Assembly (NCBI GenBank): GCA_905221605.1
Contig: CAJNDS010002622.1
Coordinates: 1 to 64,000 of the forward strand
DNA from: Symbiodinium natans
Lineage: Eukaryota > Sar > Dinophyceae > Suessiales > Symbiodiniaceae
Reading direction: 5' to 3'
DNA length: 64,000 nucleotides
Made by a program: the position numbers and the translations under genes. The notes under the pieces were generated by a model. That model made no database searches, was not told where the DNA came from, and saw nothing but the letters and a program-made list of their open reading frames with translations. This document shows, piece by piece, positions 15,717 to 53,295 of this stretch. The first letter of the stretch is position 1. Every line of letters begins with the position of its first letter.

Positions 15717-15773
15717 ATCTTGATAAGCCTGCATCCAGCAGCTCCTAATTAAGTCCGATTGCACTCGAGCGAT

Positions 15774-16949
15774 ATGGTCTTGGAAGAGCTCAACGACTTC
15801 CAGCTCTTCCGTGCTTGCGGTCCGCTCTACCCGGCGTTCGCGATCGAAAGCCTCACAAGCATCATTCTGGGCTTCTTCTTCACCTACCTCGCCCTCCGCA
15901 TCGTGGTGAGGACCGATGTCAAGAAGCCGATCAATGCTTCGTGGCGCATGTTTCGGGACTACATCTCTCCAGCTGTTGACGAGTGGTGGACGTTGATGAA
16001 GACCTGGCCGGATATGCCCAGGAAGAAGTGTGCGGACAGAATCACCTACTGTCGGAACCTCAACATTGCCATGTGCGTTGCGCAGGCGGCCGCGGCCTTC
16101 TTCTCGGTGTTCCGCTGGCTGCACATCGAGAATGTCAATGGTCTCCGGTACCTGGGCTACGCCTTCACCTGCTCCCTGATGCAGGCAGAGCTCGTGGTTC
16201 TCATTGCTCCCTACGTTCCGTGCTACAAGCTCAACGTTGTCTTCGTGGTCCTCTTCACCCACGCCTTCCTCATCTGTGGCTGGATCGGCTCCTTGCACGA
16301 AGGCTTTCTCTTTGAGGATGCCTCATGGGAGCTCTTCAAATCGTCCTGGGACGTCTCAATCTTGGTGATCACGAACAAGGGCATTGCCATTGGAATCACG
16401 ACCTTCTGCCTACTCTTTCTCTGCCTTGTGCAGATGCCCTTCCTCGCCTTGTGCTACTTCTGGGCAGGAGGGTGCCGTGCCCACTGTGACCTCCCTTACT
16501 ACTACCTCCGCGTGATGTGCGCGGTGTGGTTCACGTGGCCGGCCTTTCCATGCTGGTGGCTGATCTCGGCAGAAGGCCTCGGCCTCCTAGGGGACGCGAA
16601 GAGCAACGCCGTGGGCTTCGCCGTCCTCAACATGATCTCCAAGGGCGGCTTCACCGTAAACATGCTCAAGATTGGTGCAGACCACCGCAAGAGGTGGCCC
16701 GACGCGCCAGCGCCCAGAAGGAGTCAAAGCTGGCTGGTTGGAAAGCTCCAAGAGTATGAATCCGAGCTCACGGAGAGTCAGACCATCCGGCGCTTGCAGG
16801 CTGAGAATGCTGAGCTCAAGGCGAAGATGGGCGCGAGCACGGAGGAGAAGCTTCAGGATGCACAGGGGGAGGCGGAGAACGTGGAGAAAACGGAGAACAC
16901 CGAGAAAGCCGCTGAGTTGAAGGCTCCGCCGACCACGCTTTGGGTGTGA
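15774..16949 (+). CDS. Microbial-rhodopsin-like seven-helix membrane protein, intronless
   Basis: 391 residues in one exon. The true ATG is at 15774 (VLEELNDFQLF follows); the frame is open a few codons further upstream but without ATG. Seven hydrophobic helices fit a type I opsin. Helix C reads RYLGYAFTC (R125 onward). Helix F has WPAFPCWW, like the W-x-x-Y-P-x-x-W motif. Helix G has NMISKGGF, with K290 at the retinal-binding lysine position. By alignment to bacteriorhodopsin, D85 becomes G128, D212 becomes N286 and D96 becomes E139, so both Schiff-base counterions are missing. The C-terminal ~70 residues are charged and coiled-coil-like (EYESELTESQTIRRLQAENA). Lost counterions argue against a simple proton pump; a channel or sensory role is possible but unproven. 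A relict spliced leader precedes it. Confidence 0.8.
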   Translation: MVLEELNDFQLFRACGPLYPAFAIESLTSIILGFFFTYLALRIVVRTDVKKPINASWRMFRDYISPAVDEWWTLMKTWPDMPRKKCADRITYCRNLNIAMCVAQAAAAFFSVFRWLHIENVNGLRYLGYAFTCSLMQAELVVLIAPYVPCYKLNVVFVVLFTHAFLICGWIGSLHEGFLFEDASWELFKSSWDVSILVITNKGIAIGITTFCLLFLCLVQMPFLALCYFWAGGCRAHCDLPYYYLRVMCAVWFTWPAFPCWWLISAEGLGLLGDAKSNAVGFAVLNMISKGGFTVNMLKIGADHRKRWPDAPAPRRSQSWLVGKLQEYESELTESQTIRRLQAENAELKAKMGASTEEKLQDAQGEAENVEKTENTEKAAELKAPPTTLWV

Positions 16950-26344: not shown

Positions 26345-27384
26345 TTTTGGGGTTTTGAAGGTTCAGGGTTTAGGGTTTAGGGATTTTAGGGTTTATAGGG
26401 ATTAGGGTTTAGGGCTTGTAGGGTTTGTAGGGTTTCAAGCCCAGGCAGATGCCAGAGCCCCGTGAACAAAGGGCTTCAAGTTCGAGTGCAGGGTGCAGCT
26501 AGTCATTGAGGGCTGCAGCTTCGGCTGTTAAAGATCGAATCTCATTCCAACCGAATTCTTTGCGATTCAGAAGCGAAATAGGCTCTGTATGGGACCCTAC
26601 ATACCCTCACCCAATAGCAGCAATAGCAGTAACAGAAGCCCTGCTTCATCGAACGCCTAGAAGCTCCAAAACCCAGTGAAGCCCAAAGTTGCAGAGCCGG
26701 GCCACCTGCCTTGCAGCGCCTTTGAAAGGAGGGCTTTCGCAAGTTGCCCCCCGAGTACAGGCCGCGTGTACATTTTTTTTTTTAGAAGGTGGGACTCGGG
26801 TGTGAAGGATGTGACTATGAGGGGCGAAGAGTCAGGTAAGCCCTTAGGATATTTCGTATTTTCTTTGATTGAGGACCATAGTCAGGAATACTTTTCAGAG
26901 GGTTTCGAGGGCCGTCCTAGGCCATGTTGAATCTTTGTAATGTATAGGGTTGTAAGGTTCAGGTTTTCATCTCTATCGCATATAGGGTCCAAGACAGTTT
27001 TCCTCAGACCGAGAGCAATCAGAGCAAGGTTACGCTCGACGGTGTATGTACACTGATGGCTCAAGGTCTGCATCTAAGAAAAATTCAACAGACCCCAAGC
27101 CCATACCCCTTAACCTCGAAAAAGAGAATATAAGGAAGGAATTTACCATACCCCTCAATTTCGTTTAAGGGGTGTGCCCAAGAGGTATGTTGAACATTTC
27201 TTAGACTGTAGGGTTGGAGACTCCGTGCTTTCGGGATGGGAGCTGAGGTCTACAACGCCCTAGGACAGGCCACTTCATTCCGGATGCGTTTTCTACTATT
27301 GTCGTTCACTACTTGCACTCGCCCAGCTGCATACGCCTCTTCATATCAGAATTCCACATCTCCTACTAAGTGTCCACTGCACCC
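26345..27384. other. Spacer before the zinc-ribbon gene
   Basis: Starts with TTTAGGG-like words (26365-26440). The rest is lower in GC than the flanking genes and holds no supported exon. The promoter of the following gene must lie here or further upstream, but dinoflagellate promoters have no motif I could identify. Confidence 0.4.
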
Positions 27385-28650
27385 ATGGGTAGAACAGCAA
27401 GAAAGCGAGGCAACTCTAGCACATGGCCAGAAGAAAACGTGCAGCTGACGGAAGGCAAGATCCTTTCGTTCTTTGTGGGGGCCGGCCTGAGGAAACTTGC
27501 CTTGGAAGGAGAGCCGCCGTTGCTTGTCTTGCAGAATGCGCACAGGTTGTTCCCCAGATGCTGTGCAGTGGCGGGCATAAAGCCTAGACCGTTTGAGAGC
27601 TTCGGTCATGGGGAGCTGGACAAATTCCTGACACGGCATGGCTTTTATGAACCGCCGGGCCTTTCGCGGCTGGATGCCTTCCCCTACATGCCATCTTCCT
27701 CTTCGACGGGGCCTCCAGCAGTGGCTGAGACAAAGGGAATAGGCGCCGTGAGGGGATCGTCAGATGGTGCGCAGCAGGCACGTCGAGTTGCCGCAAAGGC
27801 TTCTGGCACACCGTATCCCAAGGTCAGACGGGTCCCGGTCAGACGGGTCCCGGTCAGACGGATCCCGGTCAGACGGTTGACTGGAACTGTCGTTGTTTCA
27901 GATGATGAGGATGCTCTGCCCGCGAATGGTGTGGAGACTGCAGAGCCAAGCCAAGTGCTCTGCGAGTGTGGGCACGCGAACAGACTCCAGGCAAAGTTTT
28001 GTGAGGAGTGTGGTCAAAGCATCAAGACTCCTTGCGCAACATCTGAGGCTCCTTGCGCGACATCTGAGGAGAGATCACGCAGCCCGCGCCGTTCGGAAAG
28101 CCCCTTGTTGTCCGACTGTGCAGACATGCCCGAGCTGGTGAGCTTGACGTTCTGTGGTTTCGAGGCGAGTACTTCATCCGATTCCGCGGCGATGATCGAC
28201 AGCTTTTGCGCTGCCATCGCGAACGCGCAGTCTGCAGTAACTGGGGTCAAAGCTGAAGAAGGTGTTCACGCCATTCGAGATCTGGGCTGCCAAGAGGTCG
28301 CTGTGGAAGATATATGTTTTTGCCAGCGGAGAATTCATCCGCGCAAAATTTTTGGAGATGGCAGATCGATGACTGACCTCGTTCAAGAGCTCGTGCAAGG
28401 GAGGACGAAGGTTGATGAGTTGCCGGTCGTGCGGCTGCTGCAGCTTCGGCGCCAGCTGATAACGCTGGATCACCGAAGAGTCTGGTGTTTCAAGGAGTAT
28501 CAGCGTCACGTGTCGCACCAAGTGATGGTTCCAGCACACGTCTTCGAGCTTTCAAATGAGACCATTGGTTTTTTCGAGGGCATCCTCGTATCAGATATTG
28601 GCACGGAGTTCTTGCAGAAGTTTCACGCTGTTCGAGGACAGATCAGCTGA
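27385..28650 (+). CDS. Zinc-ribbon protein, intronless, unknown function
   Basis: 421 residues from the ATG at 27385 (GRTARKRGNS follows); the frame continues upstream without ATG. Residues 193-210 form a small zinc ribbon: CECGHANRLQAKFCEECG, with two Cys pairs. Ahead of it an in-frame 15-base repeat gives VPVRRVPVRRIPVRR (27829 onward), and after it PCATSE is duplicated beside an Arg/Ser-rich stretch. Near residue 340-370, LPVVRLLQLRRQLITLDHRR resembles a segment I have seen in other dinoflagellate proteins of unknown function. The frame is uninterrupted for 1.27 kb in a region where other genes have introns every 60-300 bases, so it could also be a retrogene, though no spliced-leader relict was found upstream. 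Confidence 0.75.
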   Translation: MGRTARKRGNSSTWPEENVQLTEGKILSFFVGAGLRKLALEGEPPLLVLQNAHRLFPRCCAVAGIKPRPFESFGHGELDKFLTRHGFYEPPGLSRLDAFPYMPSSSSTGPPAVAETKGIGAVRGSSDGAQQARRVAAKASGTPYPKVRRVPVRRVPVRRIPVRRLTGTVVVSDDEDALPANGVETAEPSQVLCECGHANRLQAKFCEECGQSIKTPCATSEAPCATSEERSRSPRRSESPLLSDCADMPELVSLTFCGFEASTSSDSAAMIDSFCAAIANAQSAVTGVKAEEGVHAIRDLGCQEVAVEDICFCQRRIHPRKIFGDGRSMTDLVQELVQGRTKVDELPVVRLLQLRRQLITLDHRRVWCFKEYQRHVSHQVMVPAHVFELSNETIGFFEGILVSDIGTEFLQKFHAVRGQIS

Positions 28651-41559: not shown

Positions 41560-42892
41560 CTGAAGGGCTTCAGGGTCCTCAAAAGCTTTTGAGCGTCTTC
41601 TGCTTGTGGCTTTAGGGCTTTGAGTGTGTGCAAGGGGGATTCCAGGGCCATGGGATTTTACATGGCCTGAGGTTTCCGGCTCCTCCATGGGTTCCCTAAA
41701 TCCTCTGTGGCACGAATGAGCCCTTGTGGAAGCTCGGGCAGTTTCCGCTGTGGGTTTTTTAAGGGCTGAGGGGGTTCAGGGCCTGTGGGGCCTTGGGGTT
41801 CAGCTTCGAAGCCTGCTTTGTGAGAGAAGTCTGAGGGGTTGGGAGAAGAAGTAGATGGATCAGTCACTCCGTCATTCTAGCTCCCTGTTGAGTTGCTCGA
41901 AACCCTTCAGGCTCAGGAGTCCCACTGATGATTCCAACTGAAACACGTCGGTTACTACGTTTTTCTTCAGGCCTGGGTGGCATGGAATCATCAAGTTGCT
42001 GCTGGCGTTGTCAAAAGGTCAGAGGGAACTAGCGGTGTGTAAGGGAGAGTGGCTATAAGGGCCCCCTCTCTTCTCCAAAAATGCCCTTCAAACCCTTCAG
42101 CTAGGCGGGAGGCAAAAAACAAACCGTGCGCCCTCAGAGATCACACCCCCGCCCGCCCCCCCCCCCCCCCCAACCTCCTCCCTTACACTTGCCTGGTTCC
42201 TTATGATGGGGGAGGGTCGTCTTGAAGTCCGCTATGCCCTCCCTGCTTGGAAGTGAAGTGTCCCTGTGTAAGCCTAAACCCAAAACCCCTTACGCTGGGG
42301 GGGGGGGGCGGAAATCAGAAAGCCCGTGCCCGAGGACGGCAGTGATGGTTGTGCACAGTTTCTGCCGAAGGCGGGCGAAGCTCCCAACTACATGCAACTC
42401 CACCTCGGGGTTTTAAGGTCTAGGGTATGGGGCTTATTAGGGTTTATCCGTTTGTGACCGACAGCGTGCTCGGCCCTCTTGAAGCAAAGGGTAATCTTAC
42501 TTGAAGCTTCAGAGATAGCCGGCATAGCTGTGCGCTCCTGCTCTCTGAGGCGACAAAGAGTCTGAGTTCAGAAGGGGGTGTTCCTTTTGTGGTAGCTGCA
42601 AGTACTGAGCGACTAACCCGAAGCCCTAAGCCCCAAGCCCTAAAACCCCAAACCCTCAACCCTAAACTCTAAACCCTCGAAGCCCCTGCAGCATTCCGAG
42701 CCTCGAGCTTGAAGCCCATAGAGCCCGGAACCCAAGAACAGGCTCCAGTGGGTTTTGGGGGACCTAGGCAACAGAAGCCCTGAACCCTAACCCTGAACGG
42801 GCCAGACTTCAACACCCTAGAGGGTGTTTGGGGGTTTTTTGCCCGTAGAGTTTTCCTCCCAAAGCCGTGCGCCGTCCACACACCGCTGCAAA
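41560..42892. other. Region upstream of the first GFA-like gene
   Basis: C runs at 42157-42171 and a G run at 42298-42309; no supported exon. The last 20 bases before the gene resemble those before the second paralogue (CACACCGC words). Confidence 0.4.
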
Positions 42893-45437
42893 ATGGCATC
42901 CATCCAGTGCCGCTGCCGTGCGGTGGCTGTCCGACACCTGGGGTCACAGCAGCCCTTTTTGGGTTTGGGGCTTCGGGTCATAAGGGGACGTGTTTCTATA
43001 GTTCCTGTTTAGAGGAACCGCCAAAATAGGCAGCCTACTTTCCGGAAACCCCCCACGAAGGCTTCTGGGACGGATTTCCATGCTAGAACAGCTTTCGCCA
43101 CGGGGCCTCAAGTAGTGAAGTTGTAGTATTGTTCAGTGCTTACTTGCAGGCTCCTTTTGTTTGTAGGACGCCAGATTTCAACGGACTCTTCTCCCCAATC
43201 CATCCCCTTCTGAAAACGCTTGTGGACCAACCTTCGACTAGGGATCTCCATGGTTCTGGCCCACTGAGGGCTTGCTACCGCTCGGCCGAAATGTGCGTTG
43301 GAGTGTTGCTGTGTGGACTGTTACCAGAAGAGCCTCGTTCACCTGGGGAAGGGGGTAGGTGCCTAGGGAAGCTTAGGGAGCCTTAGGGAGTAGTAGGGAG
43401 TATTAGGGAACCTTGGGTTACATACCCCCCTTGAACCCCCTTCATTTAAGAACTCTAAGTTGAGGTTTGGGGCAAGGACTTCGGGGAGGTTCAACAAGAA
43501 ACCCTAAACCCGAAGCCCAAACGGCTTAAACTTAGGGGCCGAGTGAAGCAATGGAAACTGTGTAGCCCTCAACGAACAGAGATGCAAGCCCAAAGCCTAC
43601 GTCTTTGGTTTGACAGCTTCCTAAGTCCTGAGCCCTCAGTTGTCCAATCGCCTGTCTTAGCACCTGGGATCTGAAGCCCGAACAAGGACGTTATGGCCGA
43701 TGAACCTAGCTTGCAAGTCCAGGCCCCTCAAGTTGGACTACGTACTCTGAAACGAGGGGTCTGAAATGGCTTGGGTCGCATTCGGATGCTAGAAACACTT
43801 CCCACCCCTAAAAACAGAGTGTCGCCTTGCACTGTTTGTCCCGGCCCATTGAGCCCTCCAATTAAGCCCCCACCCCAAAACCATGTGGGGGTGTTTGTCA
43901 TGTCAGGAGGAAGGTGAAGGGTTCTCATGTTCTAAAGATGCAGACTCCACGTGGCTTCCGAGGAATGTGTGGTCCTGCGAGGCAGGGGGCGTGGCGTACC
44001 CCGCAGGGTACGGGGTTCACGGCAACTCCCCTGCCAAATGCTTGAAGGTTCGTGGGTCCCCGCCGGTAGTAAGGACCCCAACTAAGGTGACATCACAAGC
44101 AGCTGATAGGTAGGGTTACCTTAGAAGCCCCCAGAGAATCGTAACTACCACGAGCTTCCAGCCTCGTATTCCTGGCGCTGGTCAGCCGAGGCATCGGAAA
44201 TCCGATGTACCTTGTCTACTTTGACAACCTGCTCGACGTGCGAAGAGGCAGCTCGTCGTCGGTTGGCTTCTGGGACTTGGGGGGTTGAGTTTCTGGGATG
44301 TCCTGTCCAAAGGGGGGAGAGGTCGGGAGGGTGCTTCGGTGCGCCGAAGGCAAGGAGCAGATCGCCTTCAACCGACTTCGGGATGGCGCTCTCTCCACCA
44401 ACATGATCGCGGCGTGCTGCAAGACGCTCCTGTGTGTGGAGCACCCACGGTACGAGGGCCAATCTGTGCTCCTCTTCCCGGACTTCTGCCCGATCTCGGG
44501 CCTGGAGCCCTTGCCGGCGGCTTCCCGGGTTCACATCCGGGACTGGCCCGCGGAGGCCTACGCCAAGCTGCCGTCCCTGCCGGGGACTTGGCGGGAGGAT
44601 GGGAGGCTACATGCCGAGACGGAGGAAGACAAGGTCGCGGTGGCCAGAAACACTGAAGCCGTGCGGGCGAAGATGCTCGGCTCTGGTGCAAGAGCTCGCA
44701 AACATGAAGTCATCATGAAGTTCCCATAAGAAATCACCCGCGTGCTGTTGAAACCGGAGCATGACTCTTGCGAATGTTGGATTCCCGCACTCTTCTCTCT
44801 GTGACTTTCCTTGTGTGTGGGCTCCAACCCTCCCCGCACCGTTGTTTTGGGGTTCAGGCGTTCGATGGCTTTTGGGGGGGGGGGGGGGGGGCATATGGGT
44901 CAGGCTGGAACCTTGAACTTGAGACCCTCAACCCCAAGGAGTCCTCGAGTGTAAATCCGAGCCAAGGCACGTTCCGGTGTCCTGCGCGGCTCAAGTGTTT
45001 CAGAGGGTTTCAGAGGGTTGGCTTGCACTGCAAGGATGTCGCTGTACCGGATGTATTCCCCTCCAAACCACGAACGGTTATACCTTCACACGGAAACCCT
45101 GTCATTTTTTCACGACCTTCGCAGAGTCCCCGAATACGAAGGGAACGTCGCAAACGGTAGCGGAAGGAACCGTAAACCCCTAAACCCTAAAGCCCTAGGC
45201 CCTAAAGCACGAAACCCTAAACCCTAACCCTACTAAAACCCTAAACCCTAAACCTCCTAAACCCCCTAAGCCCCCTAAACCCTAATGAAACCCCTAATGA
45301 AGCCCAGGATGTCTCAGGATGCCAGCGGTTTTCTCACCTTTCAGCAGCTCCTGCGAGCGGCCGGGGGCCAGGTCGACACGCTCCACCTGCCCGAGGGCGC
45401 ACAGAGCCGCAGCATCAAGGCAAGCCTGGCGGAGTAG
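42893..45437 (+). CDS. GFA/CENP-V-like (DUF6151-like) cysteine-rich protein, paralogue 1
   Basis: Exons: 42893 to about 42960 (MASIQCRCRAVAVRHLG), 43269-43326 (PKCALECCCVDCYQ), 43963-44021 (NVWSCEAGGVAYPAGYG), 44191-44247 (MYLVYFDNLLDVRRG), 44350-44671 (EQIAFNRLRDG, MIAACCKTLL, LLFPDFCPI) and 45308-45437 (TFQQLLRAAGG, stop at 45437). The Cys pattern CxC, CCCxxC and CC in this order resembles GFA/DUF6151 zinc folds; substrate unknown. Middle exon lengths (58, 59, 57) equal those of paralogue 2, which confirms the borders. Donors are GA at 43327, GC at 44022 and 44248, and GA at 44672. The first donor is unresolved. CRCR here replaces CRCG of paralogue 2. The last intron is absent from paralogue 2. 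Confidence 0.82.
44672..45307 (+). other. Intron present only in paralogue 1
   Basis: 636 bases with a GA donor and AG acceptor. GATG occurs at both ends (CGAA/GATGCT and CCAG/GATGTC). In paralogue 2 the equivalent coding sequence is continuous through about 52585. Splicing here gives KMSQDASGFLTFQQLL, aligning with ADAKGETFQQLL there. Confidence 0.7.
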
Positions 45438-45951
45438 AAAAGGGCCTTTGGCAGCTGGCTCTAGGGAGTTGAGGGAGTTGAGGGAGTTCAGGGAGTTTTG
45501 GGAGGTTTAGGGAGTTCAGGGAGTTTACGGAGTTTGTTTAGGGAGTTTAGGGTCTAGGGTTGACTCAAGAGCCCGTTGCAGAAAGGTTTAGGGTTTCTCT
45601 TCGCTTCTCTTTTGCTTCTCGGGCCGGAGCCGGTTACAGGAGGGTAAAAGGTTTCGGGCCCTGAAGCCACACCTAGCTTGAGATGGGGGTTTCAAGCCCT
45701 CCTCAGCATGAATGGTGGCTCAAAGCCCGCTGGCAAGCAGGACGCTCTGGACCCAGGGGGGTGGCCCAAGCCCTGAACTCAAGTGTACCACCAAAAGGCG
45801 TGCACCCCTAAACCCTAAACCCTAAACCCTAAACCCTAAACCCTAAACCTTAAACCCTAAACCCTAAACCCTCAATTTAAGGTAAACGCCAAAAGCAGCG
45901 CCAGCAAAGCACCTCAGGGCCTAAGTCGCCCCACACCGCATTTTGCCGAAA
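45438..45951. other. Short spacer between tandem paralogues
   Basis: About 510 bases holding GGGAGTT-type repeats at 45465-45550 and a CCCTAAA array at about 45808-45872. Short spacers between tandem copies are typical of dinoflagellate gene arrays. Confidence 0.6.
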
Positions 45952-48900
45952 ATGGCATCCATCCAGTGCCGCTGCGGCACCGTGGCCATCAGATACTTTG
46001 GGGCACAGCGGGTGGAAGCGTTTCTGTCTTTGTCATTTTTCGGATTTTGGCTTGCCATAAGTTGCAAAACTTGCAACTGAAAAGCATGTTCGTGTGCGCC
46101 CTGCCGAGGGCTCGCCAGCACTTTGCCGAAGTGCGCGTTGGAGTGCTGCTGTGTGGACTGCTACCAGAAGAGCCTCGCAGCAGCGGAAAACCCTAAAGAA
46201 TCCTTCTAGACGAGAAAACGTGAAACAAAGTGAACAAACAGTGAGACAAGAGGGTCCTTCACATGATTCACACTTCCAGCTGGCATTCAAGCATTTGTCC
46301 ACCAGGTTTTCCATGTTTTCCATCAGTCTGCCCTGTAGGCTTCAGGGCCTCGTGGGGCTGCTCTTGAGGGGCTGACAAAAGGGGACGTTCTTCAGAAGCG
46401 TGCAGATGCCGTTGGCTCAACGATGGTGTCGAGCCGTAAGCGGAGCTACATGCTCGCAGAACCTCGAGATGCCAGCTCCCTGTGCCCCAAAGCTCTCTTT
46501 GCAGCCCCAGTCTTCCCGTCATTATGTGCGCGCTAGAGCTATACTATATATATATATATGTATGTATATACATATATATATATATATAGTCACTAGTAGT
46601 CCAGACGGAAACACCATGCAGCTTGGCTGGACATGCTGCGCAGCGTGCGAAGACGCGCCGCCACCAGGGGATTCTGCGGAGCAGGGCAAGGCCTTTGCCA
46701 GGAAGAGGGGCTTCGCCACGGAAGAGGAGGGCGCCGACCTTCAAGACGTTGACTATGGCAGGGCAGTTGAGGCTATTGATTTGCCGTCGCTTCCTGTTCT
46801 GCCACTAACATCAACCACGTCAAGCAGGCCAGGGAAGCGGAGTAGGCTGGAGCAGCTGAGGCACCTCGAAGTGGATGAAGAGATCATGCGTGGTATCCCT
46901 CTCCAGAAGACCCTCTGGCACTTGGGGGTTCTCTGGCGCAAGTCCCCGCTCGCACTGTCCCCAGAAGCCCGGACCGGCTTGTGGAAGATGTCGGCTCCTG
47001 CCTCGACCTTCGACATCTTCCTGTCACACACCTGGCACACGCCGGGGAAGTGGAAGATCCTCAGCCTGTTCTTCCAATCTGGCTGGAGGTTCTCTTTCCT
47101 TGGCTGGTTTGTGGGGGCCTCCCTCATGCTCCTGGCCTCCACGCACAAGCTGCTCCCCTTGTTTATCCCCTACAGGTCCAACTTCGACGGGGCCACGATC
47201 TCCTGTGGGCCCTGGTGTCTTTGTGGTACTTTACTGTAACTTTAGATCCTAGACCCTTTTTTGGGTTTCTTAATAAGGCAGCTATATAAGTTTTATAATT
47301 TTCAGCTACCCTCAGCTGAGTGCAGCCTCAAGGTGTTTGCTGGGCTCCCTCCTGGGCCACGGCCTGGGTCTCCTGCTCTCACCCTACGCGCCCAGCGCCT
47401 GCGCCCGGCGCCCCCTCTGCTTCCTGGACGTGGCCAGCATCCATCAGACGGATCGGGAGCTCATGGAGCGAGGGATCTACAGTACCTTGGGGGGACAAAA
47501 ATGAACCCTAAAATTGGGATCGTAGAACCTTTTGCTACTAAAAGCCCCGTAACAGGCACTATGCCCCCCCCTCGAGGTATCGGCGGCTTCCTTCACGTGT
47601 CCAAGGAGCTGCAGGTCTTGTGGAGTGCGCCATACCTTTCCAGGCTCGGACATGCTTTGGGGCAGTGTGTGGGGCAGTTTTTGGGGCAGGTTTTTAGGGT
47701 TTAGGGAGAGAGAGGGTTTAGGGTTTAAGGTTAGTTCGATTGGATCCTCGTCCATGCAGGGTTTAGGGTCTTAACAAGGGGTTGAGGATGTAAGGAGACA
47801 TGGAGACACCAAGCATGCATAGGGCCAAATGCAAGAGAGAACAACACAAGCAGATGGAATCGCACCCGGCGCGCGGACACGAGAAATCGTCCCATCAGCT
47901 GAAGCGAAATTTTCAGGCACGTTTTCGACAGGGTTTGGACAAGAACGCCTTGGGACCGGAAACCATCGGAAGCCTCTAGAATTGTTCTTCGCTTCAAGCT
48001 TCGGGTTCAGGATGGAAACGTTCGGCAACCAGAGCGCAAAGCAGATAAAAAGAGCCGAGGCTCTGCAACCGTTGTTTTGGAACGATGTTCGGGATGATCG
48101 TTGTTTATGATTGGCCATGCCCTGTTGAAGACGGAGCGGCGAAAATGCTGAATTCGACAGAGAAAAAGCTTTGCCGTGGTGAGGAGAAAGCAGAAAGTAG
48201 GGCTGATTGCTGTTTTCACAAGGCAGGGTACTACGCCCTCGGCCAAGGCTAGTCGGAAAACGCTCGGTGTCTCCTGGTGGGACTGTAGGATGTACTTTCC
48301 ATGAGAATCCAGTGCTGGTCCAGTGCTGCTGTCGAGTCGACCGTCGATCAGTTCGGTTCGAAACTGATTCGCTCGGTTTGACGAGTCGTGACTGAGCTGT
48401 TGGGCCCTGCAGGCTCTGGTGCATTTTCGAACTGGCCGCATACCGCACGGCAAATCCCTCTGGGCGCGTGGTCTTGTCGCCACTATTTGTGGAATGCGGC
48501 GCTTGCATCTGCATTCTTGGGGCATACTTCGCGGCCTTCCTCTTCGTCTTTGCCCTGCCCTTGCAACATTTCGGGATCTACGTCGTCTATGTGGTCGGCC
48601 TCTTGCCTATCTACGTCCTCATGCACCTCTTGCGCAGGAACATCCTCGCGAAACATCAGCTGTTCGAAGGTTTGCGTTTCTTCACGCTCGCCGAAGCCAG
48701 GCAGGAGGTGTTTTGAAACTCACAAACAAAAGGGTTGATCTGAGTTATGGAACCTGCTATAATAGAAACCCAAAGCTGAATGGACTCCCCAGGTTCAACT
48801 AAGTAGCCTCGTTCGTTCACTGGGCCCTTGACCAGGTGCGAGAGCGACTTTGACCATGACTTCATCCACACAGCCATCCGCGCATGGTATGGAAGTGCCG

Positions 48901-51900
48901 AGGCATTCACCGCTTATGTGCAGGGATCTCTGCGCCAAGAGCTGCTGGCCTCGAAGCCCACAACCATTCCGCTGAGGTGGGGGAGGGGCCTGAGAAGAAT
49001 CGCCAGAATACAGGTATCTCCAGCTCCCCAACAGGTGCCTGTTTGCTTAAACCCTAAACCCTAAACCCTAAACCCGAAACCCTAAACCCTAAACCCTAAA
49101 CCCGAAGCCCTATAAACCAACAGGTACCTGGTGCTTTTGGTGGGAGTGCCCTTCGGGCTTTCTCTGGATTTTCTGGCGGCCCTGATCGCAAGGGAGGCCC
49201 CGATGGAATGGCTGCTGACCGAGCCGGGGGCTGCTTTGGAGGGTATTTTTGGGGAGGTTTATTGGGGGAGTTTAGGGTGTATAGGGCTTAGGGCTTACCA
49301 GCTCGTGAAGGGAGGAGTTGGGGAGTTTAAGTTTAGGGCTTCTGGAGGCGGAGTCCGGATGTCGAGTGCCCCCACTGAATTTCCCGATTCAATCAACTTA
49401 GAGAGCCGGCGCCCTCTTTCCCCGCTCCCCCCCCAAGAAGAAATGCAGAGAGCAGGGCGGCTTTTGCTGTCTTCCTGGGCTCCAAGAGCCCTGATCCTAG
49501 GAGTTTCTCGCCGGCTGTTTGGGATTCAACCTTTGCTGGTTCTTCGGCAGTGTCCAGATCGCCCTCTTTCTCTGCGACCGCTTTGCGGCCCCTTGGCGTG
49601 GTGGCCTCTTCGACTACCTGCACCTGGGATTCGGGACCCCAAAGGTCTATACTTTTTGAGGCCCTACATCAACCCTAAACCCTAAACCCTACAGGGGCCC
49701 TATAGTAAAGAAAGCGGAAAGGCACGAACCCAGCCGATCTACCCAGGCAAACGCTTGTTCTGTTCCTCATCTTCTTCGGGGTCTACTTTCTCGGGAGTCT
49801 CATGGCCAGCACCAGCAATCTCTGGCACGCGCTCGCGGTGGCCTCGGCCAGCCTCTTGTTTGCCATCGTCACCCTGGTCTGTCGGCGTGCGGCCGTCGGG
49901 TCCTGACCCGCAGCAAGCTCGTGCGTCGTGCGGAGCAACCCGCTTCCTCTGTAGTAGAGTGAGACGCAATGTAGTTGTAGCCCCACCCTGATTCTACAAC
50001 TACGCGAATGGAGATGAAGCAGATCTAGAATGTTCGTGTTCTGGGGGGGAGGGCCTTGAAGTTGGGAGTCCTTGGACTCCCATTGACTGGGAAAGGCTAG
50101 CCATGCCGCAAAAAGCGACGTGTCTGCCGAGATCCCAGGATGCCAGCCGTTTTTTTTTTTTACTGTTCCCTATTTTTCTCTGTGAGAAGCTCTTAATGAG
50201 TTTTCGTGGGTGTATATATTGTGCCCGAAAATTGGGATACCATATCCGCCCACCGATTGTACGGTGTCCGGTGTCACTCTTGGAGTCGTGGTGCTCAGAC
50301 ATCCCAGGCGAGCGCGAGCGCGCCCGAGGTCAAACAATCCTTAAGAGGGGTTACAGTACCCCTACTATAATCCCTATTAGGGGATGTTAATTGTAAACGC
50401 TTACGCGCGCCGCCTCGGCAGCCGGGCCGGCCCACGGACAGGAAAGGAGGAAAGAGGGTTTCTAGTCAGGAAGCGAGGAGCGGGGGGTAACAGGGCGTGG
50501 CAGGGTGCCAGACCGGTTTCGGGTGCGGCAGGAGGGTCCAGAAGGTCCTAGGTCCAGAGGTGGCAGGAGGGTCTCAGGAAATGTCCTAAGGGGGGTCCCA
50601 GCCAGACCCCCAAACAGCCAAATTCGCACGTGTTGGTCCCACAGGCTGTGGGGGGGGGGGGGCTTGTTCCAGATGCTTCTCGGCAGGAAGCCGAGGCGAA
50701 TACAAGGGGGAGCATCTTAAGGGGATCCTGATGTTAAGAGATGCTTGGACGAAGACACTGATCGAGCTACCCACTTCAATTCCCGAACCTTGCATCCTGA
50801 ACTTAACCCCGAGCCCCCATTCGAACCAGCAAAACCCTAAACCCTGTCAACCCCCCTTGTAAACCTTACAGTCAACTCTAAACCCAGACGAGTGGGAAGG
50901 TATGGAGACTCTGCAAATAGCCAGCAGCTGGCGGGGGGTTTGGGGGGGGGCAGCGCTCCTGAGCAGCTGACCCTGGGAAGGGAGCCCAGAGTGATGACGG
51001 GCTACAGGGGCTCGGGGCTCCTTACTAGTCTAGCAAGGCTCCTGGAAAGCAGGGGGGATCCCCAGTTTCCTGAGAGAATGTCCAGACGGTTGGCCAAAAG
51101 AGACTTAAGACGACCATCAGCAAAAGCCGAGCCCCGAGAAACCTCTGGTGCCTTTGGAGTGGTATTGGGTTAGGGTTTGGGGTTTGGGGGGTTTGGGGGG
51201 TTTGGGTTGGGGGTTTCGGGTTCAGGGTTGAGGGGGATTCGGGGTGAAGAGGGTCAGAAGGTGGTTTGGAGATTCTTGCGTACTTTCTTATAGAAGAGGG
51301 AACAATGCTTGAGGCTACAGGCTTGTTTAGGGTTGTTCTGAGTCGGTTCGGACAACCGCAGTCTTAAAGGTTTGTGGTGTGTAGAGTTCGCGGCCGCCAA
51401 GGAACGTTTGGTCCTGCGAGGCAGGAGGAGTGGCTTGCCCGCCCGGCTTCGGAACGCATGGCAGCCTGACCGGGTTTGTTCCGGTTTGCTGCTAAGGACC
51501 TTCCGCAAAGTTACCTTTCGTACGACGCTTCTGAAAATGCCTATGTTACTGTATGGTAACTTCCCTAACACCCTAAACCCTAAACCCTTGTAGGGTCTTT
51601 TCGAGCTCAGCCCAGCCCTGCAGTTTCGATGCCCCGAAGTGGGCCCCCCGTACTGCATCCCAAGAATGGGTGTGCCCTAAACCCTTAAACCTAAAACCCT
51701 GCGTAAACCCTAAACTTTCTAAACCCTAAACCCTAAACCCTACAGCAACTGTTCGGGCAGGGGATGGGAGGTTTTTTTTTGATTCAGGGCCTCAGATGTT
51801 TCCCCCCTTATGGACGCAAAGCATGAACCCAGGGCTTCCGCTCCTTGTGCGGTTTGGGGTTTAGGGTTTAGGGGGTAGGGTTTAGGGTTTAGGGTTTAGG

Positions 51901-52686
51901 GTTTAGGGTTTAGGGTTTAGGGTTTAGGGTTTAGGGTTTAGGGTTTAGGGTTTAGGGTTTAGGGTTTTTGGGTTCCTTTTGCAGATGAGGCGTTGGCAGC
52001 CCGATGCACCTCGTCTACTTTGACAACAGCCTGGATGTGCAGAGAGGCAGCTTGCTACCGAAAGCGGCCCAGGACCTTCCTCTGAGTCTGGGGTTTCCGA
52101 AACTAGGGGTACCGAATTGGGGTCCATATTGTAAGGGAATCCGACGACTTCGGCATTTAGGGGTCCCTTATTTTCGTAAACCCCCGTGTGTTGAAGTTGG
52201 CCTCAGGTTTTTGGTTGGGAGAGGTTGGGAGGGTGCACCTAAGGCAAGGAACAGATCGCCTTCAACCGGCTTCGGGATGGTGCGCGCTCGACGAACATGA
52301 TCGCCTCGTGCTGCAAGACGCTCCTTTGTGGCGAGCATGTGAGCTATAACAGCAAGACTGTGCTCCTCTTTCCAGACTTCTGCCCAATCTTGGGTGTTCC
52401 GCCCTTGCCGCCGCCGGAATGCCGGGTCTTCATCAAGGACTGGCCCGCGGACGCCTACACCAAGCTGCCGCCGAAGCCGGGCATCTGGTATGAGGACGGC
52501 AGGATGGTTTCTGAGAGCGAAGAAGACACGGCCCTGGTGTTCCGAAGTGCCGCAGGCATTCACCGGGCTGTGCCTGCGGACGCGAAGGGTGAGACCTTTC
52601 AGCAGTTGCTGGAGGCTGCGGGTGGGAAGGTGGAGATCCTTGGCTTACCAGAAGGCGCGAATAGCAGGAGAAGGAAAGCAGCCTAG
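45952..52686 (+). CDS. GFA/CENP-V-like (DUF6151-like) protein, paralogue 2, interrupted by a nested gene
   Basis: Exons: 45952 to about 46020 (MASIQCRCGTVAIRYFG), 46109-46166 (PKCALECCCVDCYQ), 51402-51460 (NVWSCEAGGVACPPGFG), 51990-52046 (MHLVYFDNSLDVQRG) and 52244-52686 (EQIAFNRLRDG, MIASCCKTLL, ETFQQLLEAAGG, stop TAG). Frame is kept from the second exon to the stop. Lengths 58, 59 and 57 match paralogue 1. Between exons 2 and 3 lies a 5,235-base intron containing a complete other gene on the same strand; in paralogue 1 this intron is 636 bases. No exon is duplicated or missing between the two blocks, which favours one gene over two fragments. Differences from paralogue 1 in exon 3 are mostly at third codon positions, a sign of selection on the protein. 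The end of exon 1 is unresolved. Confidence 0.75.
46541..46590. repeat. (TA)n microsatellite
   Basis: TATATA tract with short ATGTATGTATAC interruptions, just upstream of the nested gene's probable ATG. Confidence 0.92.
46616..49906 (+). CDS. TIR-like multi-pass membrane protein, eight exons, complete
   Basis: Exons 46616-47214, 47333-47481, 47577-47643, 48413-48709, 48836-48976, 49124-49256, 49558-49644 and 49715-49906 sum to 1,665 bases, so 554 residues, and every junction keeps frame. The cytosolic N-terminus leads to DIFLSHTWHTPGKWK (from residue 133), two hydrophobic segments, CFLDVASIHQTDRELMERGI (residues 229-248), IGGFLHVSKELQVLWSAPYL and SRLWCIFELAAYR, then several membrane helices to the end. 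The SH, FLDxxxIxQ and WCxxEL blocks resemble strands and helices of TIR domains; E278 matches the glutamate catalytic in TIR NAD hydrolases. Membrane helices between the first two blocks are unusual. Dinoflagellates appear to have many relatives. Intron 3 has a GC donor with CAGGCTC at both ends; the others are GT-AG. Function unproven. The gene lies inside an intron of the GFA-like paralogue 2. Confidence 0.87.
49050..49104 (-). repeat. Telomere-like array inside intron 5 of the TIR-like gene
   Basis: Seven to eight CCCTAAA units, one reading CCCGAAA, within the 147-base intron 48977-49123. This is direct evidence that such arrays can make up much of an intron and end close to the 3' splice site. 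Confidence 0.93.
49907..51401. other. Intron of GFA-like paralogue 2 after the nested gene
   Basis: No second gene supported. It holds homopolymer runs (T at 50151, G at 50651 and 50941) and short frames on both strands. Confidence 0.45.
51852..51967 (+). repeat. Telomere-like array (TTTAGGG)n, about fifteen units, in a GFA-like intron
   Basis: Lies in the 529-base intron 51461-51989 of paralogue 2. The equivalent intron of paralogue 1 (44022-44190, 169 bases) has no array, so the array arose or vanished after the duplication. Confidence 0.95.
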
Positions 52687-53295
52687 CAAAAGGCCGCATC
52701 TTTCTTTTGGGCTTTTGCGTTCACTGGAGCACCTCTTGAGAAGCCCACAGACCTGACCCCTCAAAACCCTCAAGACGCTGAAGGTTTGGCGTTCTGCTCA
52801 GCCGTGCACATTCGAAGCCCCCAAACGAAATCATCGCCCAAGGGCGCTTGAGGTCGAGTCTGAATTAGAGCCGGCTCAGTTAAGAACCACTGTCACGGTG
52901 AGTAGCTCAAGGAACGCTTCCATTTACAGAACAATCCTCATGATTGCAATCACGTTTCGGTGACACACACACACACATATACACATACATACACATATGT
53001 GCTTAGAACAGCACATAATTTCTTCGCGGCTCCAGCCGGTGTTTCAAAGGACGAACGGGTTTAGGCTTTCGGGGTCTCTTCCGACCAGCAGGTGCCCCCG
53101 CCCCCCCTCCCAACAGGTTTTTGTATTGATTTCTTGACCAGAAGGTGCCGGGAGTTGTTGAGTTTGAGCCGAACTGTCGAGAATCAGGACGGTTTCAAGC
53201 TCCAGTTGGCCATGTGCGGCGTTGGTTAGAATGATGAGAATGTGCAGGCTCTAAGTGCCCCCAACGTCCCCATACCCCCCTTCACGGCTCTGCAG
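52687..53295. other. Spacer after the GFA-like gene
   Basis: Contains a (CA)n/(TA)-like microsatellite at 52962-52998 and a C run at 53098-53108. No supported exon. Confidence 0.45.

Follow-up and report, generated by a model that had tools for sequence, protein, structure and literature searches.

Analysis of a 64,000-nucleotide stretch of a Symbiodinium natans contig (hereafter the window) revealed a complete eight-exon gene between the second and third exons of a five-exon gene on the same strand. We consider it reasonably probable that these are two intact protein genes, one nested in the other, and that the host forms the downstream member of a tandem pair of genes encoding cysteine-rich proteins with a glutathione-dependent formaldehyde-activating enzyme (GFA) fold. 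The layout, the open frames, the splice dinucleotides and the family motif spanning 46169/51402 are directly visible in the DNA; judged from these, the layout is real in the sequence and the pair is probably truly nested. The host gene (GFA-like paralogue 2) consists of the following parts:

45952..46007, + strand: host exon 1, encoding the CRC motif; its ATG start and CRCG match the relatives
46119..46169, + strand: host exon 2, encoding CCCVDCYQ(K) and followed by a GA donor; the relatives read ECCCVDCYxKNVW
46170..51401, + strand: host intron 2, 5,232 bases, GA-AG, containing the inner gene
51402..51460, + strand: host exon 3, 59 nt
51990..52046, + strand: host exon 4, 57 nt
52244..52686, + strand: host exon 5 with the stop codon

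Joining the five exons (45952-52686, + strand) gave a coding sequence of 666 nt for 221 residues with a single terminal stop, free of internal stops and frameshifts and with the cysteine motifs retained. Host introns 1-4 carry GC-AG, GA-AG, GC-AG and GC-AG, and usable dinucleotides (GT, GC or GA with AG) were present in all 11 introns of the pair, four in the host and seven in the inner gene; GC and GA donors are described as ordinary in Symbiodiniaceae (PMC11453091). An earlier note on this DNA had placed the end of exon 2 at 46166, which loses a lysine. Ending the exon at 46169 with a GA donor restores the family motif CCCVDCYQKNVWSC: CAGAA joined to GAACGTTTGG at 46169/51402 gives YQKNVW, as compared with CYDKNVW, CYAKNVW and CYQKNEW in the relatives P0004, P0005 and P0083, and the junction as a whole yields CCCVDCYQKNVWSCEAGG, where P0004 has ECCCVDCYDKNVWSCEAGG and the other full-length relatives agree. 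The start of the same exon, previously set at 46109, had to be moved to 46119 given the GC donor after 46007; starting at 46109 disrupts the frame in that case and would require a non-standard exon 1 donor to keep it.

The two halves of the host need each other, as CRC and CCCVDC are encoded by exons 1-2 and absent from exons 3-5, and the latter have no usable in-frame upstream start (in-frame stop at 51382, first Met at residue 25 of 185). The sequence supports the same-strand nesting of two intact frames proposed in the earlier note, with splicing of the host across the 5.2 kb intron a predicted step. The correct phase in which the exons resume at 51402 is weak evidence for nesting, since both halves received it in the duplication that gave rise to the two paralogues.

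The inner gene lies wholly within host intron 2 (46616-49906 in 46170-51401, both on the + strand) and is built as follows:

46616..47208, + strand: inner exon 1; 46616 is the start chosen here, while the annotation of P0017 begins at a later Met (46886)
47321..47481, + strand: inner exon 2
47577..47643, + strand: inner exon 3
48413..48700, + strand: inner exon 4; the SRLWCxFE motif straddles the exon 3/4 junction
48836..48976, + strand: inner exon 5
49124..49220, + strand: inner exon 6, followed by a GA-AG intron; alternative cuts giving the same protein need non-standard dinucleotides
49501..49619, + strand: inner exon 7
49747..49906, + strand: inner exon 8 with the stop codon

Its coding sequence of 1,626 nt encodes 541 residues and ends in a single terminal stop. 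It is thus confirmed that GFA-like exons 1-2 and 3-5 flank a complete gene of eight exons in the same orientation, with both frames open, although the seven introns of this gene amount to 14 splice sites and not to the 16 given before. The best match of the inner gene is the annotated S. natans protein P0017, which is identical in the exonic blocks, the counted mismatches sitting at block edges.

For comparison, the tandem neighbour of the host was modelled in the same way:

42893..45437, + strand: GFA-like paralogue 1, six exons with an intact 234-residue frame
42893-42962, 43269-43329, 43963-44021, 44191-44247, 44350-44687 and 45318-45437, + strand: exons of paralogue 1

The end of its exon 1 (42962, GT donor) is the choice that keeps the frame. 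Exon lengths had been reported as identical between the paralogues, which is true of exons 3 and 4 (59 and 57 nt) but not of exons 1-2, which measure 70/61 nt in paralogue 1 and 56/51 nt in the host under frame-keeping GT/GC-AG models, nor of the last exon, which a 630-base intron divides in paralogue 1 into 338 + 120 nt. This GC-AG intron (44688-45317) is absent from the host and was gained or lost since the duplication. Intron 2 of paralogue 1 measures 633 bases, slightly less than the 636 given earlier, so that the host's 5,232 bases are about eight times longer. In a search of the 64 kb window, for which the exon 3 query was taken in the form of paralogue 1, the peptides of exons 1-4 each found two strong matches, the next weak ones having E >= 0.3, and the exon 5 peptide found two matches and, in addition, the divided C-terminus of paralogue 1.

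Divergence from paralogue 1 was determined separately for the two halves of the host, with 95% bootstrap ranges. Exons 1-2 showed a pS of 0.435 (0.21-0.72) and a pN of 0.080 (0.03-0.15) over 32 codons, the only ones whose alignment is unaffected by splice ambiguity, and exons 3-5 a pS of 0.510 (0.40-0.63) and a pN of 0.186 (0.14-0.24) over 143 codons of a local alignment that leaves out the C-terminus. As the ranges of synonymous divergence overlap, the two halves look to be of compatible age, and both appear constrained; this constraint may date from before the inner gene arrived.

The most serious alternative, which we nevertheless consider unlikely, is that the host was split recently: arrival of the inner gene, by itself or through a rearrangement, would have parted exons 1-2 from exons 3-5, leaving halves that are not joined in any mRNA and a young pseudogene whose frames have yet to decay. 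The eightfold length of intron 2 would fit such an event, as would the gene models of two relatives, P0001 and P0002 from Symbiodinium sp. KB8 and S. necroappetens, which begin at exon 3, as if exons 1-2 were remote or missed there too. The database results point the same way: two protein searches (16 matches among 336 candidates and 11 among 7,994 scored candidates, selected by length and shared words and in the second search also capped in number, so that the figures hold for the candidates scored) found nothing that closely resembles the host or paralogue 1 apart from two ORFs of the contig to which the window belongs, P0003 and P0011, which are identical. The best other matches, the two models from Symbiodinium sp. 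KB8 and S. necroappetens that begin at exon 3, were 72% identical. The S. natans annotation of 2021 is described as having used full-length cDNA and retained a model only if transcripts or two predictors supported it (PMC8045281), and the missing matches leave room for a decaying or unspliced host. However, paralogue 1 is missing equally, so that the gap is not specific to the host and constitutes weak evidence against its expression. Against a split also stand the five exons without stop or frameshift, their usable splice dinucleotides and their preserved cysteine motifs. Finally, the flanks of the inner gene share no string of at least 11 bases except one CCCTAAA-type 11-mer, and no inverted 11-mer, a search to which target-site duplications shorter than 11 bases are invisible.

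An assembly error that placed two partial GFA-like copies around the inner gene appears quite improbable. Assemblers can go wrong where tandem paralogues lie amid many TTTAGGG-type repeats, as here, and P0017 is found on a 339,312-base record, the window's own ORFs being on one of 194,133 bases. Yet each exon set occurs twice and in order in the window, which holds no N, and the 2021 assembly of S. natans, to which the window may belong, is described as a hybrid that includes PacBio reads, with a contig N50 that is apparently 358,021, as read from the column for the open-ocean isolate in a table of that paper (PMC8045281). The last alternative, in which exons 1-2 (45952-46169) come from an independent duplication of part of paralogue 1 and exons 3-5 belong to an unrelated gene with another start, could account for the higher nucleotide identity of exons 1-2 to paralogue 1 (0.84 over 96 nt, compared with 0.74 over 429 nt for exons 3-5) and for pN ranges that barely overlap, but is very improbable given that the pS ranges do overlap, that a lower pN would be expected of cysteine motifs, that none of 69 N-terminal matches (E <= 1) places exon 1-2-like sequence in intron 2 (46170-51385), and that exons 3-5 lack a usable start upstream in their frame.

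If the pair is indeed nested, both genes would, in the simplest model, be transcribed in the same direction, with two processing fates. For the host mRNA, the GA donor of exon 2 would be spliced to the acceptor of exon 3 and the inner gene discarded as intron; for the inner mRNA, a transcript would gain a spliced leader upstream of 46616 and be polyadenylated after 49906. Dinoflagellate mRNAs are reported to carry a trans-spliced leader (PMC7245778, PMC11453091), and the transcription, splicing and leader addition assumed here, like any function of the pair, are predictions from the DNA. Since one RNA molecule could yield one product only, the two genes would share or compete for a precursor unless transcription of the inner gene starts independently. 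According to a review, polycistronic expression appears rare in dinoflagellates (PMC11453091), which speaks against a shared precursor, not against the layout, and makes separate transcription starts an equal possibility. It is a rather speculative suggestion that the locus acts as a processing switch, in which leader trans-splicing would decide the fate of one precursor: cis-splicing across the 5.2 kb would produce the host mRNA, and leader addition with polyadenylation within the host intron the inner one. Phase would be no barrier to wrong joining: the host exon 2 donor agrees in phase with five of the seven acceptors in the inner gene, so that some misjoined products could stay in frame.

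Assignment of the host to a protein family relies on motifs and fold. The host contains CRC, CCCVDC and SCC, also present in its relatives, in the order of the GFA cysteine motifs (CxC, CCxxC-type and a later CC; PF04828, 1x6m). The fold of its relative P0004 best matches 1x6m and 3fac and was assigned as GFA. We take these cysteines to be the zinc ligands of the GFA family. Despite this likeness, the host is far from GFA in sequence: its conceptual protein, with provisional splicing, matched no Pfam family at E <= 1 and thus not PF04828 above cut-off, two of 18 relatives had a GFA Pfam match (best E 9.8e-4), and a sequence search of solved structures gave no match for the family.

The inner gene, in turn, belongs to a family with 64 matches at E <= 0.001 among 7,993 scored candidates, P0017 included. 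This large dinoflagellate family has many members from Symbiodiniaceae and combines a TIR-like fold with long hydrophobic helices. In fold comparison, the S. natans inner protein aligned with TIR chains and was assigned as TIR; the fold is shared with the TIR domains of plant RPP1, RUN1 and others, and SRLWCxFE is conserved. In contrast to those domains, the inner protein has long hydrophobic helices within and after the TIR-like part, which may be membranous. W186, C187, F189 and E190 (WC.FE) are invariant across 42 family sequences, a pattern that we take to resemble the catalytic Glu motif of TIR enzymes, with NAD-cleaving activity only putative. By sequence, no TIR Pfam model was reached above cut-off: P0017 had no match at E <= 0.1, TIR_2 matched weakly in 12 of the 42 relatives (best E 0.007), and the search of solved structures returned only a chance-level match (Cullin-4B, E 0.27). 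Most aligned relatives start with MGxxxxCC, a possible lipid-anchor signal; the inner protein starts with MQLGWTCC.

Nesting within introns is an already known kind of gene arrangement, given the thousands of cases in Polarella glacialis, a member of the same order (Suessiales), where complete protein genes likewise lie in introns of multi-exon genes, a likeness that we draw irrespective of strand. The Polarella genome paper reports 4,898 (8.4%) and 3,359 (6.5%) genes nested in introns; a host held a single nested gene in 71% and 75% of cases and at most 18 and 24 (PMC7245778). The S. natans pair is thus a tidy new example of an arrangement common in a close relative and no new kind. The nested structure in Polarella was confirmed by full-length transcripts according to its authors, whereas the pair described here is known from sequence, and the Polarella pipeline predicted nested genes only in introns > 10,000 bp, compared with 5,232 bp for the S. 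natans host intron (PMC7245778). If the host is expressed, genes in introns below this 10 kb limit would constitute a class that annotation could miss. Human nested genes, discussed in connection with transcriptional interference, likewise sit within the intron of another gene (PMC3192792); in dinoflagellates, leader addition offers an additional possible route to the inner mRNA. The literature searched yielded no nested-gene count for Symbiodinium itself. The pair provides a compact instance of same-strand nesting that lends itself to checking, in an organism whose mRNAs receive spliced leaders.

Concerning the origin of the nest, local alignment of intron 2 of paralogue 1 to the flanks of the inner gene scored 20 on the 5' side (shuffles: mean 19.5, maximum 27) and 27 on the 3' side (mean 22.0, maximum 28), where the shuffles preserved two-base blocks only and the best alignments to both flanks were CCCTAAA-type strings; the second introns of the two paralogues thus show no clear likeness. 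Between host and paralogue 1, introns 1 and 3 scored at shuffle level (18 and 16), as did the upstream 200 bases (22, shuffle maximum 29), and intron 4 retained some likeness (35, shuffle maximum 25). A search for relics of the 21-base spliced leader reached at best 16/21 on the + strand and 15/21 on the - strand of the window, with neither core string found; in the roughly 300 bases upstream, the best matches were 13/21 for paralogue 1 and the host, 12/21 for the inner gene and 11/21 for exon 3. When 86 retrieved proteins were compared with the window, none of 342 matches (E <= 1e-3) fell outside 42800-52700. Telomere-like TTTAGGG/CCCTAAA arrays are scattered through introns and spacers of the window, e.g. 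at 45806-45872, 49048-49112 and 51851-51967. Two long open frames on the + strand, at 15753-16949 and 27370-28650, extend from stop to stop over 398 and 426 residues, the first of which resembles a multi-pass membrane protein by eye.
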